IMG/VR virus record: IMGVR_UViG_3300025438_000122
Coordinates: 1-25,880 of that record
Direction: 5' to 3' (one strand)
Source: a virus
Length of the DNA stretch: 25,880 bases
The translations under genes were made by a program, and so were the position numbers. Below the pieces are notes generated by a model that worked only from the letters and a program-made list of their open reading frames with translations, had not been told where the DNA came from and did no database searches. Positions 8,442 to 12,422 of the stretch are shown here, piece after piece (the stretch's first letter is position 1; each line of letters begins with the position of its first letter).

Positions 8442-8831
8442 CTAATAAAGTTCTGTGTATTGTGCCTCCATTGCCTCCATCACTATCGACTGGCTTTTAA
8501 TCCTTTCGTCTAAGCTAATTATACACCTCAGAAACTCCTCCTTTGTTTCGGCTACGAAATAGCCTTGTGAGTTGGCGCATAATCCTTTTATGGATCCAAT
8601 CACTCTAATGGCTCCAATCACTTTCCTAAGCCTTGCCGCTGAAATTATATTTTTGCATCCAGCACCAATACCAGGGTGAAGCAGAAAATTTATATTATCT
8701 AGGATTATGTGGTTTGGTGTGGCCTTTCCTTTGCCTATTTTAGTTTTTAGCATATCCACCACTAAAGGCATTATAACTCGGGTTTCAAAACCGCTAATTT
8801 CTTTTGTAATCTGTTCAAAGTTCGTAATCAT
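8442..8831 (-). CDS. Winged-helix-like regulatory or replication protein
   Basis: 129 residues. An N-terminal segment (about 1-35) precedes ATPNHIILDNINFLLHPGIG, then a likely winged helix: AARLRKVIGAIRVIGSIKGL (about 66-85), CANSQGYFVAETKEEFLRCI (about 86-105) and a closing helix SLDERIKSQSIVMEAM. The pattern LRk.I..IR..G.I..L.as..GYyv....ee....i.SL..R resembles small winged-helix proteins beside replication genes in Bacteroidota phages. DNA binding is therefore likely, with the target unknown. It is the last gene after the palindrome block and is followed by a hairpin at 8388-8437. Confidence 0.65.
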   Translation of the reverse strand: MITNFEQITKEISGFETRVIMPLVVDMLKTKIGKGKATPNHIILDNINFLLHPGIGAGCKNIISAARLRKVIGAIRVIGSIKGLCANSQGYFVAETKEEFLRCIISLDERIKSQSIVMEAMEAQYTELY

Positions 8832-8858: not shown

Positions 8859-8917
8859 TAACGATGTATAAAATAAACCCTAATGGGTCGTTTACACTTA
8901 ATTTTATACAGGTGTTG
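8859..8917 (-). repeat. attC-like palindrome 8
   Basis: Plus strand: TAACG (8859-8863), TGTATAAAATAAA (8865-8877), loop, TTAATTTTATACA (8898-8910), then GTTG (8914-8917). The arms pair at 12 of 13 positions. It is nearly a copy of the palindrome at 11003-11060, including the flank toward the next gene (CGTTAAAATTTTAA on the minus strand). Confidence 0.7.
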
Positions 8918-9031
8918 TAACACAATAAGATTATCCCACCAACTTTTCGGGAGGTGGAACGCTTCACCGTCTGCCATATGATAGACTGTAAGGAGTCGAA
9001 CCCTACTCGCATAATCTTAAAGTGTACAACA
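8913..9031 (-). repeat. Large multi-arm structured element, cloverleaf-like
   Basis: The outer stem pairs TGTTGTA (8913-8919) with TACAACA (9025-9031), CAC (8921-8923) with GTG (9022-9024) and TAAGATTAT (8926-8934) with ATAATCTTA (9011-9019), leaving one bulged A at 8920. Inside are CCACC/GGTGG (8936-8940/8953-8957), GTCT/AGAC (8969-8972/8983-8986) and a 6-bp stem at 8988-9006. On the minus strand that last arm has the 7-base loop TTCGACT, like a tRNA T-loop. It is not a normal tRNA on either strand. It could be an RNA, a tRNA relic or a long attC-like site. Confidence 0.5.
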
Positions 9032-9049
9032 TTATTTAAAAATCATTAA

Positions 9050-9072
9050 AACGCTTTTTACATTTAGCGTTA
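9050..9072 (-). repeat. Small hairpin at the 3' end of the 65-residue gene
   Basis: AACGCT (9050-9055) pairs with AGCGTT (9066-9071). The GTTA at 9069-9072 carries the TAA stop of the adjacent gene on the minus strand, as in the larger attC-like sites. It may be the outer box of a composite site with the element at 8913-9031. Confidence 0.45.
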
Positions 9073-9267
9073 TACACAATTAAGCTCTGTTATCTTAACG
9101 TTAATCCAATAAGGTACATCGTAATCAATATTTTCATCTACACATAAACCTTCTTCGTCCCAATTCCAAAAGGGGTTAGCTATAATACAAGAACCATCAT
9201 TGTTAAGTGTTTCTATATGAGTTTCTTTATTTTCGTAATTTACTTTTTGTCCTTCTTTAAAGTTCAT
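9070..9267 (-). CDS. Cassette gene: 65-residue acidic protein
   Basis: Start chosen at ATG 9265-9267 (MNFKEGQKVNYENKETH) after an A-rich leader; a longer reading would run through the attC-like site. The protein begins like a small beta-barrel (FKEGQKVNYENKETHIETL, then DGSCIIANPFW) and is rich in Asp, Glu and Trp. I do not recognise it. Its TAA stop lies inside the TAACGC box of the following hairpin. Base use is AT-rich, unlike the GAGG/CTC-rich packaging genes, which fits a gene acquired with its palindrome. Confidence 0.65.
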   Translation of the reverse strand: MNFKEGQKVNYENKETHIETLNNDGSCIIANPFWNWDEEGLCVDENIDYDVPYWINVKITELNCV

Positions 9268-9292
9268 TTTATTTAAATTTAAAAGTGTATAA

Positions 9293-9336
9293 TAACGTGT
9301 ATAGCACATTAAAACGATGCCATACACAAACCGTTG
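9293..9336 (-). repeat. attC-like palindrome 6 (short)
   Basis: Plus strand: TAAC (9293-9296), GTGTATAGCA (9297-9306), an 11-base loop, TGCCATACAC (9318-9327), then GTTG (9333-9336). The arms pair 9 of 10, with the exception forming G-T on the minus strand. It separates the 69- and 65-residue genes. Confidence 0.6.
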
Positions 9337-9346
9337 TATGCAATGG

Positions 9347-9556
9347 CTAAATCATTACATTTCTAACATACTTCCCGCAAGAAGGGCAGTTATTTACTCG
9401 GTACATATTTTCATCTGAATGACCTTTTATGTACGGCATACACTTAGTTCCATCTTCAAGTTTCATCCAACCTAAGTTCATTTTTTCTAACACGCCACAG
9501 CATACAACATTATGTATAGTGCATGGCTTTTCTATTGTTTTGTCAGTATTTTCCAT
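9347..9556 (-). CDS. Cassette gene: small zinc-ribbon-like protein
   Basis: 69 residues from ATG 9554-9556 (MENTDKTIEKP); an upstream in-frame TTG at 9562 is less likely. The C-terminus NNCPSCGKYVRNVMI has a CPSCGK knuckle, and the first half offers CTIHNVVCCGV, so a two-knuckle zinc site is plausible. The body (LGWMKLEDGTKCMPYIKG) looks like a short strand pair. The function is unknown. It stands alone between two attC-like palindromes and has the AT-rich composition of its neighbours there. Confidence 0.65.
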   Translation of the reverse strand: MENTDKTIEKPCTIHNVVCCGVLEKMNLGWMKLEDGTKCMPYIKGHSDENMYRVNNCPSCGKYVRNVMI

Positions 9557-9605
9557 AATCAAATTTTTACCAGTTTATTAAATTAGTGGCGTTTATTAGG
9601 TATTC

Positions 9606-9663
9606 TAACGTAGTATAAAGTTAACCTTTCAGGTCGCTAACGCTTAACTTTATACGGTCGTTA
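9606..9663 (-). repeat. attC-like palindrome 5
   Basis: Plus strand: TAACG (9606-9610), GTATAAAGTTAA (9613-9624), loop, TTAACTTTATAC (9644-9655), CGTTA (9659-9663). The inner arms are a perfect 12 bp, the outer boxes a perfect 5 bp, and the spacers (TA against GGT) do not pair: the clearest attC layout in the array. The loop contains GCTAACGC, shared with the site at 11003-11060. Confidence 0.7.
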
Positions 9664-9672
9664 TATGCTATT

Positions 9673-9849
9673 TTAAAGCCGACACTCAACTAAATGACAA
9701 AAATATACACTCACTAATCTGCCATCATACGAAAATGTAGTGTTGGTGCATTCCTGTTTAGGCTTTATTTTACCGCCACATTTTACACATTGGTGTTTTA
9801 ATCTCGGATTGACTATTTTACTCTTAAATACTTTTATATTATCGAACAT
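9673..9849 (-). CDS. Cassette gene: 58-residue CxxC protein
   Basis: ATG at 9847-9849, TAA at 9673-9675. The protein (MFDNIKVFKSKIVNPRLK, then HQCVKCGGKIKPKQECTN and GRLVSVYFCHLVECRL) has CVKCGGKIKPKQEC and a second CHLVEC pair, a compact zinc-ribbon pattern. It is basic in the first half. The start follows an A-rich leader, and the stop lies 10 bases before the next palindrome box. It is not related by eye to the other zinc protein of the array. The function is unknown; it could be nucleic-acid binding. Confidence 0.6.
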   Translation of the reverse strand: MFDNIKVFKSKIVNPRLKHQCVKCGGKIKPKQECTNTTFSYDGRLVSVYFCHLVECRL

Positions 9850-9902
9850 TTTTTATGTTTTTTATTATTAATTAAATCCTACTCCGAAAGAAAAACAGCA
9901 TA

Positions 9903-10028
9903 TAACAGCGTGTATAAAAAATGGCGGGTTCAGTGCTATTTAGAAACATTTGTGCTGATATGAACTGCATTGCTTTCAAGTTGATTTTGTTGTTAAATTC
10001 CGCCACTTCTTATACACGCCACCCGTTA
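9903..10028 (-). repeat. attC-like palindrome 4 (long)
   Basis: Plus strand: TAAC (9903-9906), GCGTGTATAAAAAATGGCGG (9908-9927), a 72-base loop, CCGCCACTTCTTATACACGC (10000-10019), then GTTA (10025-10028). The arms pair 18 of 20, and both exceptions become G-T on the minus strand. The GTTA contains the stop codon of the 51-residue gene. Palindromes with GCGTGTATAA and GGCGG arms are, from memory, frequent between genes in flavobacterial chromosomes. Confidence 0.7.
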
Positions 10029-10181
10029 TGGTACATTTAACTCAACTACACTTATAACATAAAGTGTAGGGTTTCTACCATAAAATATTGTCATTGCGTT
10101 TTCTCTACTTGTTGCTGTTATTTCTTCAATTTCTGGTGAAGATTTTATTGTTCTTGTGAATTTCACTTTAAAACGTACCAT
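10026..10181 (-). CDS. Cassette gene: 51-residue basic protein
   Basis: The ATG (10179-10181) overlaps the GTTATG box of the upstream palindrome on the minus strand, and the TAA (10026-10028) overlaps the TAACG box of the downstream one, so the coding sequence runs exactly box to box. The protein (MVRFKVKFTRTIKSSPEIEE, then ITATSRENAMTIFYGRNPTLYV) looks like a small alpha/beta fold: a basic strand, a helix containing EEITATSRENAMTIF, and a strand LYVISVVELN. Proteins of this shape are common as single small cassettes in Bacteroidota. The function is unknown. Confidence 0.65.
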   Translation of the reverse strand: MVRFKVKFTRTIKSSPEIEEITATSRENAMTIFYGRNPTLYVISVVELNVP

Positions 10182-10267
10182 AACAAAAGCTAAAATTAAT
10201 AGCCTATAAAGGCTGTGATTAAATTGATTAGTTCATTACTTAGGCTACTAATCTTAGCCAAACGTTA
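10181..10267 (-). repeat. attC-like palindrome 3
   Basis: Plus strand: TAAC (10181-10184), GCTAAAATTAATAGCCT (10189-10205), loop, AGGCTACTAATCTTAGC (10242-10258), GTTA (10264-10267) continuing as GTTAGGT, which fits the attC core GTTRRRY fully. The spacers (AAAA and CAAAC) do not pair. Two exceptions in the 17-bp arms become G-T on the minus strand. The stop of the helicase-loader gene lies in the GTTA. Confidence 0.7.
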
Positions 10268-10984
10268 GGTTCTAAAAGATTCTCCTTTAAACTGTACTAT
10301 ATTAAACATTGAGAATATCCTATCATAAACTCGGGGCCCGTACTTGGCAGAGAACTCATATATCCCAGCCTCCAAACTACCCTCCTCCTTTGGATCGTAG
10401 TTACAAGTGAGGTGAGTGAGTGCCTGGTTGCTGTATCTCTTTTCTAAAATATCTTTGAATAAATTAATCTTTCCGTAATTGCTGGCATCTCTTTCCGTTT
10501 TCAAATCGTCAAAGTATTTCGCCTTGGCCTTGAACCCGTTGAAAGTTCCTTTAATATACTTTTTATTAAACACTTCTTTATCTGAGGGACTACTACAGGC
10601 TTCAAACTCATCTACTATACCCATGGCGTGATAACTCATAAAACTCTTATCGCATCCATTTAGGGCCAACTGGAGGGCTGCCATGTAGGAACTCTTACCA
10701 GTTCCATAGGTTCCAATAATTAACAAGCCCTTTTCAAAGCTGGGAGTATTCTTTGAGCTCCAGAGGTTCTCACAATCAAAAAATCTTTTATCTTCTGAGA
10801 AATAGAAAATTAAAGTCTTTAGGTTATTAATGGCCTCTGGGGTTTCCTTAAACTCCTGGAGAGGGTTAAGCTGTTTCCAGAAGTATCTGAACCTCCTCCA
10901 TAACTCTTTATCTGTAAATTGTATTTTAGGATCTTGAAATTTAAGCTCCTCTTTTCTTTTGGTGTTTATTTCTGAAATTTTCAT
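10265..10984 (-). CDS. DnaC/IstB-like AAA+ ATPase, probable helicase loader
   Basis: 239 residues. Walker A is GTYGTGKSS (91-99) and Walker B YFDDLKTERD (157-166), very close to the FIDDLGTE of DnaC. It is followed by YGKINLFKDILEKRYSN (170-186), a sensor THLTCNYDP (190-198), and GPRVYDRIFSMF (217-228), which carries the likely arginine finger. This is the family that loads replicative helicase onto the phage origin. An N-terminal helical part (1-60) may contact the helicase. It is flanked by attC-like sites on both sides and its TAA stop is inside one, yet its CTC/GAGG-rich base use looks like the phage genes rather than the small AT-rich cassettes. Confidence 0.85.
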   Translation of the reverse strand: MKISEINTKRKEELKFQDPKIQFTDKELWRRFRYFWKQLNPLQEFKETPEAINNLKTLIFYFSEDKRFFDCENLWSSKNTPSFEKGLLIIGTYGTGKSSYMAALQLALNGCDKSFMSYHAMGIVDEFEACSSPSDKEVFNKKYIKGTFNGFKAKAKYFDDLKTERDASNYGKINLFKDILEKRYSNQALTHLTCNYDPKEEGSLEAGIYEFSAKYGPRVYDRIFSMFNIVQFKGESFRT

Positions 10985-11002
10985 TGGTTTGGTTTAAAAT
11001 TT

Positions 11003-11060
11003 TAACGAAGTATAAAATTAACACTTCGTGTCGCTAACGCTTAACTTTATACAGGTGTTA
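11003..11060 (-). repeat. attC-like palindrome 2
   Basis: Plus strand: TAACG (11003-11007), GTATAAAATTAA (11010-11021), loop, TTAACTTTATAC (11041-11052), GTTA (11057-11060) continuing as GTTAGGG. The arms pair 11 of 12, the exception being G-T on the minus strand. The core and the loop GCTAACGC are shared with the site at 9606-9663, and the outer flank with the site at 8859-8917. Confidence 0.7.
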
Positions 11061-11069
11061 GGGCAAATA

Positions 11070-11495
11070 CTACGATATTGCATTTTCATAAACATTACCA
11101 CTAACCTTGAATCTAAAGTCTTTTAAATCTTTACCTAAATACCAACCCTCTTTTTTGTTTTGAGAAAAAGTATTGTCTAACTTCCAACAACCTTCTTTTC
11201 CACACCAATAAACTTGCTGTTTAGTATCTTCTAACTTAACATTTTCTTCAAGAGTTACATCTACATCAATTAAAGTATCTCCCTCGTAAACTTCTACACC
11301 ATTACAATCTTTAAAACCTGTAAATTGGCTTAATGTTTTTACATCTATAATAAATTCAGAAACACTTGATAAATCTTCTTTATCTTCTAAACCGATAATT
11401 ATATCTTGATTATTGAAATCGTGATTATTAAAATAGTGTCCGTAAACAAAAATATTATTGCTTTTTGCTCTAAATTTTATTTCTCTATTTTCCAT
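11070..11495 (-). CDS. YopX family protein
   Basis: 141 residues. It begins with REIKFRAKSNNIFVYGHYF, the family start (rEIKFRaw....m..G), has a central QFTGFKDCNGVEVYEGDTL (about 57-75) and ends with FRFKVSGNVYENA (the v.GNiyENp box). YopX proteins are beta-rich phage and prophage proteins of unknown biochemical function, often among early genes. The start codon overlaps the stop of the DUF7220-like gene by 11 bases, so the two form one two-gene unit. The codon use is markedly AT-rich. The family assignment is firm, the function open. Confidence 0.88.
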   Translation of the reverse strand: MENREIKFRAKSNNIFVYGHYFNNHDFNNQDIIIGLEDKEDLSSVSEFIIDVKTLSQFTGFKDCNGVEVYEGDTLIDVDVTLEENVKLEDTKQQVYWCGKEGCWKLDNTFSQNKKEGWYLGKDLKDFRFKVSGNVYENAIS

Positions 11496-11700
11496 TTGTC
11501 TTTTTATTAAAATATCTTCTTAAAATGTAGCTTCTTGCAATGCTAATTAAAGTAAAATATAAAGTGATTATTAAATTCTTACTCGTACTACTTTCTATTC
11601 CTAAAATTGGAAATATTATAAATAAAGAGAGTAACGATATTAGATAGCCAATTGCTACATTAGTTAAACTCTCTAAAAAGGATTGTTTTTTTGTTTGCAT
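11485..11700 (-). CDS. DUF7220-like membrane protein
   Basis: 71 residues from ATG 11698-11700 (MQTKKQSFLESLTNVAIGYL); a longer reading from 11763 would be translated out of the attC-like site and is rejected. Two membrane segments are evident: NVAIGYLISLLSLFIIFPIL and NLIITLYFTLISIARSYILR. The layout (k.s..EsltN..iGy......l...P..g, then tl.ft..SiaRSy.lRR.Fn) matches small DUF7220-type proteins of phages, here from memory. Inner-membrane location is expected; the function is unknown. It shares one cassette with the YopX gene. Confidence 0.75.
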   Translation of the reverse strand: MQTKKQSFLESLTNVAIGYLISLLSLFIIFPILGIESSTSKNLIITLYFTLISIARSYILRRYFNKKTNGK

Positions 11701-11725
11701 ATTCGTTTTTAATTTAACCGTACTT

Positions 11726-11783
11726 GCCCTAACACTATATATAATTAATGGCAAAAAAGCCACTAACCATATACAACACGTTA
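11726..11783 (-). repeat. attC-like palindrome 1 (first in transcription order)
   Basis: Plus strand: CCCTAAC (11727-11733), inner arm 11735-11752, AAAAAA loop, inner arm 11759-11774, CGTTA (11779-11783). At least 15 bp form on the minus strand, including three G-T pairs that would be A-C mismatches on the plus strand. The stop of the DUF6291-like gene (11781-11783) is inside the box. Confidence 0.65.
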
Positions 11784-12422
11784 TCTCATTAAAGGGTTTC
11801 GGGTTGTTTGTTGATTATCGTAATTCCCTTCTATTATCTTGACGAAATTAGAGGAATTAATTACCCAGTCAAAGTTGGCTTTCCAATTACTGTCATTTTC
11901 ACCTTGTAAAAATTCTGAATCTTTTACTTTTTTGAATGCATTACTCAACTCCTCTCTGCCATGTTCTTTTATTCTAATTTTTAGATGCTTTTTCCTTTCG
12001 GTGTTTAGAGCTTTTAACTTTGAAAGTTTCCATGTAAAGGAATTCCACTCTGAGATTATATCTTTATAATCTACATTAACATTAACATTATCATTAACAT
12101 TAACATTAACATTAACAGTTGACGTAGGTTTAACCTTGGTTAACGTAGGTTCAACCTTGTTGCTAGCCCTTGCCTCTGCTGACTTTTTACCCATGTTACT
12201 ATAGCTTTTTAGCTGTTTATCCCACTTTAAGAGGTCAGCTTTAAGCATAGGTTTCATGTGTCCAAAAGCCATTTTAACCAGAAGATTTTTACTCTCTGGG
12301 TTTTCATTATTCACATAGGCCAGAATATGCTTTAAGAGCTCACCAGCATCTTCATTTGGCATCTCCTTAATCATATTACTCCAATCTGAATAAAAAATAA
12401 ATGTTTTCTTTCCTGTGGCCAT
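11781..12422 (-). CDS. DUF6291-like replication protein
   Basis: 213 residues. The N-terminal 90 residues (FIFYSDWSNMIKEMPNEDAG, LLKHILAYVNNENPES, AFGHMKPMLKADLLKWDKQ, MGKKSAEARASNK) follow the DUF6291 pattern of Bacteroidota phage proteins, usually placed with the helicase loader. A linker has a run of VN dipeptides (VNVNVNVNDNVNVNVD), then a helical C-terminal domain (WNSFTWKLSKLKALNTERKK, SNWKANFDWVINSSNFVKI) resembling the C-terminal tail of DnaD-like initiators. It probably starts replication with the loader at 10265. It is coupled to the gene upstream (TAATG). Its stop marks the border where the palindrome array begins. Confidence 0.75.
   Translation of the reverse strand: MATGKKTFIFYSDWSNMIKEMPNEDAGELLKHILAYVNNENPESKNLLVKMAFGHMKPMLKADLLKWDKQLKSYSNMGKKSAEARASNKVEPTLTKVKPTSTVNVNVNVNDNVNVNVDYKDIISEWNSFTWKLSKLKALNTERKKHLKIRIKEHGREELSNAFKKVKDSEFLQGENDSNWKANFDWVINSSNFVKIIEGNYDNQQTTRNPLMR
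12075..12159 (-). repeat. Iteron-like repeats inside the DUF6291-like gene
   Basis: Seven consecutive hexamers lie at 12075-12116 on the plus strand: six ATTAAC and one ATTATC (coding VN, DN). Directly after come two 21-base tandem units at 12118-12138 and 12139-12159 differing at two positions, each with a palindrome AGGTTnAACCT. Both arrays keep the reading frame. Their place inside a putative initiator gene recalls the lambda O origin. Confidence 0.55.

Follow-up and report, generated by a model that had tools for sequence, protein, structure and literature searches.

An integron-like cassette array lacking an integrase in the replication module of a putative flavobacterial phage, and related sites within the reading frames of its relatives

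Introduction

The viral contig IMGVR_UViG_3300025438_000122 (IMG/VR; the whole stretch of 25,880 nucleotides is referred to as the window) carries, between the genes of a phage replication module, a run of hairpins with AAC and GTT outer boxes that alternate with small genes. The locus raises the question of whether an integron-like cassette array resides in this phage and, if so, which units its sites exchange. Judged from sequence comparisons, the window probably contains an integrase-less array of the CALIN type (cluster of attC sites lacking an integrase) in the replication module of a flavobacterial phage, while corresponding sites in its relatives, among them the viral contigs L003 and L004, are located in coding sequence and may shuffle protein halves. 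Similarity to phages of Cellulophaga, Olleya, Leeuwenhoekiella and Winogradskyella suggests that the window phage, one of marine Bacteroidota, infects a flavobacterium.

Complementary cassette ends and structure of the array

Reading both strands of the 3.6-kb array region revealed eight hairpins on the minus strand, each composed of an AAC and a GTT box, unpaired spacers and a longer inner stem. All genes of the region are likewise encoded on the minus strand, i.e., the hairpins lie on the coding strand. The layout of outer box (R), spacer and inner arm (L) was matched nine times within the 3.6 kb, as compared to zero to five times (mean 2) in 20 dinucleotide-preserving shuffles. An earlier note on this DNA had reported about seven palindromes of this kind; they are real, but there are eight of them, A7 being weak.

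A stronger signal than the palindromes, missed in the earlier note, is the complementarity of the cassette ends. The ends of an integron cassette derive from one circle, so that its first bases pair with the box following its own gene. In 6/6 units (C1 and C3–C7), the start of the cassette is complementary to the 3' box after its own gene, with closing scores of 7.5–12 versus a mean of 4.3 and a maximum of 8 for non-adjacent pairs. In a permutation test, the observed arrangement alone (1/720) attained the observed sum of closing scores. Complementary ends are as expected for excisable circles. The array comprises five gene cassettes and one unit without an obvious gene, flanked by phage replication genes:

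11781–12422, minus strand: DUF6291/DnaD-like replication protein; backbone, precedes the array
11731–11782, minus strand: attC-like hairpin A1; R'' ATAAC, stem TTGTATATGGTTAGTGGC/GCCATTAATTATATATAG, R' GTTAGGG
10985–11780, minus strand: insertion between the DUF6291 and loader genes (796 bp), composed of A1, C1, A2 and a leader; absent from L003 and L004
11485–11763, minus strand: DUF7220 (PF23858) protein of cassette C1 (Pfam E value 2.8e-28)
11070–11495, minus strand: YopX-family protein (PF09643) of cassette C1 (Pfam E value 1.1e-12)
11004–11059, minus strand: attC-like hairpin A2; its box closes C1 across two genes (GTTAGGGCAAGTAC/GTATTTGCCCTAAC)
10265–10984, minus strand: DnaC-like helicase loader (PHROG_50, E value 2.6e-17); backbone, not a cassette
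10182–10266, minus strand: attC-like hairpin A3, matching the R-spacer-L layout
10026–10181, minus strand: 51-aa open reading frame (ORF) of cassette C3; start codon within the GTTATGG box, closing pair GTTATGGTAC/GTACCATAAC
9904–10027, minus strand: attC-like hairpin A4; 20-bp stem, long terminal loop
9673–9849, minus strand: 58-aa CxxC (zinc-ribbon-like) protein of cassette C4; closing pair GTTATATGCT/AGCATATAAC, weak PHROG match
9607–9662, minus strand: attC-like hairpin A5, matching the R-spacer-L layout
9347–9562, minus strand: ORF with an in-frame cassette boundary, GTTGTATGC, at 9508 (CTIHN|VVCCGV...CPSCGK); candidate split gene
9294–9335, minus strand: attC-like hairpin A6, with AAC and GTT boxes
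9070–9267, minus strand: 65-aa ORF of cassette C6; closing pair with a short indel
9028–9071, minus strand: attC-like hairpin A7, weak
8914–9030, minus strand: unit C7; complementary ends, no convincing ORF, contains the stretch GGGTTCGACTCC
8860–8916, minus strand: hairpin A8; fixed end of the array, at whose AAC box the homology to the L003 backbone starts
8442–8831, minus strand: phage gene PHROG_2113; backbone, follows the array here and in L003

The hairpins thus alternate with one gene pair (DUF7220 and YopX) and with single small genes, as had been described before; exceptions to the rule of single small genes are the unit at 8914–9030, which lacks a convincing gene, and the ORF at 9347–9562, which spans a cassette boundary. 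The stretch GGGTTCGACTCC prompted us to consider C7 as a tRNA or permuted tRNA; ARAGORN detected none, even in a circularised copy, and this idea was rejected.

The hairpins were compared with the anatomy of attC sites. The AAC and GTT boxes are present in 8/8 hairpins, the full heptamers RYYYAAC and GTTRRRY in part of them only; the spacers are unpaired, and the sequence of the inner L''/L' stem varies while its pairing is kept. Hairpin A8 has an extra or mismatched base in its L'' arm, and an extra base was also seen, by eye, in the relatives L043–L045, L056 and L077. Hairpin A2 recurs in L003, L032 and the Winogradskyella phage Peternella_1.

An empty site and exchanged cassettes in related phages

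L003 and L004 contain the same phage module as the window, with loader proteins sharing 96% and 88% identity, and loader genes sharing 90% and 79% DNA identity, respectively, with those of the window. In both contigs, the loader gene directly follows that of the DUF6291 protein: the gap amounts to two bases (AA) in L003, and the genes overlap in L004, compared with 796 bp in the window. Since the two genes are directly adjacent in two relatives, the 796 bp are a clean gain in the window, and no target duplication is visible at the insertion in the comparison with L003 and L004. A second site, between the loader gene and the next backbone gene, is occupied by different cassettes in all three phages; L003 carries an N6/N4 DNA methylase gene and small ORFs, and L004 a longer set. 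Homology between window and L003 sets in again precisely at the A8 AAC box, and A8 therefore constitutes the fixed end of the main array. Cassettes together with their sites have thus been cleanly gained or exchanged among relatives, which supports the proposal of the earlier note that cassettes resembling those of integrons were inserted among the genes for phage replication.

In the mechanism we propose, the hairpins would act as attC-like single-strand recombination sites, with the AAC and GTT boxes as the points of cassette entry and exit, A8 remaining as the fixed end. The recombinase probably acts in trans and might be an integron integrase of the host or another tyrosine recombinase.

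In the gene of the DUF6291 protein, a run of AACATT repeats at window positions 12060–12115, which encodes VNVNVN..., differs in length between the window and L003.

Sites within reading frames

Following up the odd ORF at 9347–9562, whose second part is the content of cassette C5, led to sites that are part of coding sequences in viral ORFs. At the same locus, L003 and L004 contain clearer split genes, with the junction DNA GTTGTAGGGCARAGCGAACA. Scanning for the exact junction retrieved 58 stretches in viral contigs and four in 257 Gb of cellular genomes, three of these four with the same layout. Nearly all of the viral matches are located in small ORFs consisting of a variable front, the junction (translated as VVGQSEQ) and a variable back, which often contains CxxC pairs; 3' of the stop codon, there is usually a box, TTGCCTACAAC, that is complementary to the junction. 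A degenerate scan yielded further genuine members, and as AGCGAACA is unchanged in every one of them, the junction is conserved at the DNA level. In contig L048, a 315-aa ORF that by eye resembles an RNA ligase is followed by the VVGQSEQ joint and a cysteine-rich tail, so that the joint also occurs outside tiny proteins.

In 81 unique small viral ORFs, mostly gathered by one junction motif, the site is located within the reading frame. The loop of the hairpin contains the start of the protein, the GTT box is an in-frame codon, and the AAC box follows the stop codon; the arm upstream of the start codon pairs with a coding arm just before the junction. Stem-arm pairing averaged 11.8 within loci, as compared to 7.45 (standard deviation 1.75) between loci. 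A motif-free search for such coding hairpins, in loci that had mostly been fetched with the junction motif, identified 47 ORFs for the GTT/AAC combination, but only 2–5 with four complementary triplets unrelated to it; with two control triplets that represent shifted registers of the same sites, 16–17 ORFs were obtained. GTT was in frame in 42 of the 47 ORFs and in 22 of the 27 that lack the motif (p = 4e-7). The junctions of these ORFs fall into several families, namely GTTGTAG, GTTAGCC, GTTAGCG, GTTATAC and others.

We propose that small genes of these relatives, including the two closest phages at this locus, have acquired the site, with the ORF starting in the hairpin loop, the inner stem and the GTT box being coding, and the closing AAC located past the stop codon. 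Seven representative split proteins did not match any Pfam or PHROG family at cut-off. The structure predicted for the L082 protein, with a mean pLDDT (predicted local distance difference test) score of 55, was too low in confidence for use; the model, which hints at two helices, a loose joint at residues 49–65 and short strands, was not used.

Exchange of front and back modules

Pairwise comparison of the 81 unique ORFs gave 30 pairs with a common front alone, 29 with a common back alone and four with both parts in common, although these counts are not fully independent, as some ORFs stem from overlapping loci. The limits could be resolved to single bases in two cases. Similarity between the loci L051 and L082 is high over the front module, but stops at the AAC box on one side and at the junction on the other. 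Conversely, the L082 and L121 genes, both located on a single contig, are nearly identical over the back module, from the GTT to the closing AAC, and show no relatedness on either side of it. Whole units from AAC to AAC have moved as well: L042 and L078 have such a unit in common (98.5% identity) within different flanks, and L034 and L087 seem, by eye, to represent another case. The GTT box had been considered as the sole exchange point, an idea that was dropped in view of the whole unit moved in L042/L078. Exchange thus takes place at both kinds of boxes, AAC and GTT.

Breaks at AAC and GTT would thus bound front and back modules that can be rejoined in frame, so that protein halves would be shuffled besides genes. 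We consider it rather likely that in-frame hairpin sites of the integron type constitute a natural system of Bacteroidota phages which draws fronts and backs from a common viral pool and rejoins them into new proteins; integron-type catalysis by an enzyme provided in trans, selection for mixing, and a function of the resulting proteins would be elements of such a system. As to the two kinds of breakpoints, the exchange point of attC sites normally lies in R', whereas in attC sites without extrahelical bases strand specificity is partly lost and the top-strand exchange point is shifted to R'' (PMC2727003). Absence of extrahelical bases would hence give both kinds of breakpoints, GTT and AAC, and the scarcity of such bases in the window stems would permit both exchange points.

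Alternative explanations

Ordinary phage mosaicism, i.e., homologous or annealing recombination through short conserved stretches such as the VVGQSEQ DNA or the hairpins, would not require a site-specific enzyme. Phages often encode annealing recombinases, the junction offers 20–24 nt of conserved DNA, and pairs that share the front lose homology only past the junction. However, homology of the back modules begins at the GTT itself in L082/L121, at position –1 relative to it in L036/L044 and at –4 in L058/L076, AAC boxes with next to no identity in their flanks form the outer limits, and the families GTTGTAG, GTTAGCC, GTTATAC and GTTAGCG, while using one frame, offer no shared sequence beyond GTT. 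Moreover, homologous recombination needs neither matching stem arms nor complementary cassette ends. Mosaicism as the full explanation therefore seems unlikely to us.

The hairpins could also be RNA elements, such as terminators or elements of translation control, travelling with small genes. The hairpin of the coding strand is more stable than that of its complement in 42/42 split genes, due to pairs of G in L'' with T in L' (67 versus 15), which would be G-U pairs in an mRNA; the same bias is found in several stems of the window. Yet attC sites show strand asymmetry too, and complementary ends across genes, breakpoints at AAC and GTT, and the lack of any match near the gathering score in an Rfam search over the array point to a DNA site. 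We regard a pure RNA role as rather improbable, but roles as DNA and RNA could coexist.

According to the earlier note, the loader gene itself is a mobile cassette, which would imply an exchange of replication genes. Its position between hairpins A2 and A3 is in accordance with this idea, but the closing score of the segment at 10265–10984 is 4, its ends not being complementary. Because the gene adjoins that of the DUF6291 protein in L003 and L004, at the high DNA identities given above, and lacks self-complementary ends, we assign it to the backbone of all three phages, which makes a mobile loader highly improbable. Transposons resembling MITEs (miniature inverted-repeat transposable elements) inserted beside genes would account for repeated intergenic palindromes and for the likeness of A2 and A8, but are the least credible explanation, given that the hairpins keep their shape while differing in sequence, cassette ends pair mutually and have no common terminal inverted repeat, genes move with the sites, the 796-bp insertion shows no target duplication, and no relative was seen to have gained a palindrome alone with such a duplication.

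Several observations weigh against an integron-type array. Neither an integrase nor another tyrosine recombinase is encoded on the records of the window, L003 and L004, which are fragments of 24–28 kb. The R boxes of the window hairpins do not all fit GTTRRRY, and the canonical extrahelical bases are mostly absent from their stems. The ORF at 9347–9562, the best split-gene candidate of the window, does not have a clear L'' partner upstream, and the exchange of fronts and backs could in part be due to homologous recombination through the 20–24 nt junction. With eight sites on one strand and no PF00589 match on the window record, the locus nevertheless resembles a CALIN rather than a complete integron.

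Search for a recombinase

A tyrosine recombinase is encoded on 11 of the 49 records searched, three of these 11 being cellular genomes. One genome containing the junction, G046, is a Bacteroidetes metagenome-assembled genome, and its phylum was sampled for integron integrases. Of 296 genomes, 84 encode full-length enzymes that exceed the curated cut-off, a frequency higher than expected; in one order, only 3 of 119 genomes have such an integrase. The type-IX tail family, found in 48 of 61 of the sampled genomes, supports assignment of the group to the Bacteroidota. Several Bacteroidetes genomes (L113–L116, family of G046) code for integron-integrase relatives of 360–400 aa without the middle region, and G051 contains several short C-terminal fragments of such enzymes. 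The scanner for long-stem hairpins did not pick up the arrays located next to integrases on Bacteroidota chromosomes.

XerA-like enzymes of 263–267 aa follow the end of the array in L078-type phages and in the Cellulophaga phage Ingeline_1. The 20-nt motif AACACCCAYATAACNCCACC is located 49–55 nt upstream of the start codons of diverged XerA-like genes in three kinds of phages (L078, L064, L070, L143, L146–L148); the copy in L078 overlaps with the final cassette box, a position conceivable for an attI-like site. As candidates for the array recombinase, the XerA-like enzymes were retained as a lead only: that of L078 scores below the cut-off for integron integrases, and none is encoded on the window record.

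Relation to known systems

The sites described here share with integron attC sites the order R''-spacer-L''...L'-spacer-R', the conserved AAC and GTT, exchange at GTT, complementary cassette ends, and an organisation that is poor in sequence and rich in structure. They differ from them in having longer stems, few extrahelical bases and long terminal loops able to hold the start of a gene, and in the use of both R'' and R' as breakpoints. Nivina et al. reportedly put synthetic attC sites into coding sequence in 2020. Whereas those were engineered, the coding sites reported here are natural and occur in many viral contigs. Such synthetic sites exploit the sequence tolerance of attC to position recombination sites at will (Nivina et al. 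2020, cited in PMC8618304). In fused cassettes of Pseudomonas, an ORF may run into the next cassette as a rare by-product of attC loss (PMC4670013). Compared with these fused cassettes, the split genes retain the site, keep a constant frame and exchange halves. Text searches, covering open-licence papers, did not retrieve any report of attC-like sites within reading frames combined with an exchange of protein halves; this arrangement apparently has not been reported before.

Integrons are known for shuffling genes as a whole. Provided that the coding sites function as proposed, the same chemistry would build new proteins from halves in bacterial viruses, in a manner reminiscent of exon shuffling. 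The split genes would then amount to a natural collection of tiny phage proteins built of two parts, many of them with zinc-ribbon-like tails and, in the members tested, without a Pfam or PHROG family, and would allow a direct test of the rate at which phages produce new accessory proteins. The findings also suggest that the cassette arrays of flavobacterial phages are larger than so far reported.

CALINs in phage genomes have been described previously; five of six phage attC sites, other than those of the window, were recombined by an integron integrase, and of the sites of Polaribacter phage P12002L that were tested with IntI1 in Escherichia coli, attC2 was recombined (Qi et al. 2023, PMC9892861). 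The window array is best read as a further member of these phage CALINs. It resembles that of P12002L, a flavobacterial phage without an integrase in which attC-like hairpins are combined with small-gene or methyltransferase cassettes; among the relatives of the window phage, L003 likewise has an N6/N4 DNA methylase cassette. Natural empty sites of this kind and sites in reading frames, by contrast, are absent from the main text of PMC9892861. In the P12002L genome (L168, NC_028924), we found about nine hairpins of the window shape on the minus strand, which is the coding strand, between positions 31118 and 40948; for the published assay, two attC sites had been selected. In the hairpin at 32492–32694 of P12002L, the annotated gene gp41 starts in the loop and runs through the GTT box.

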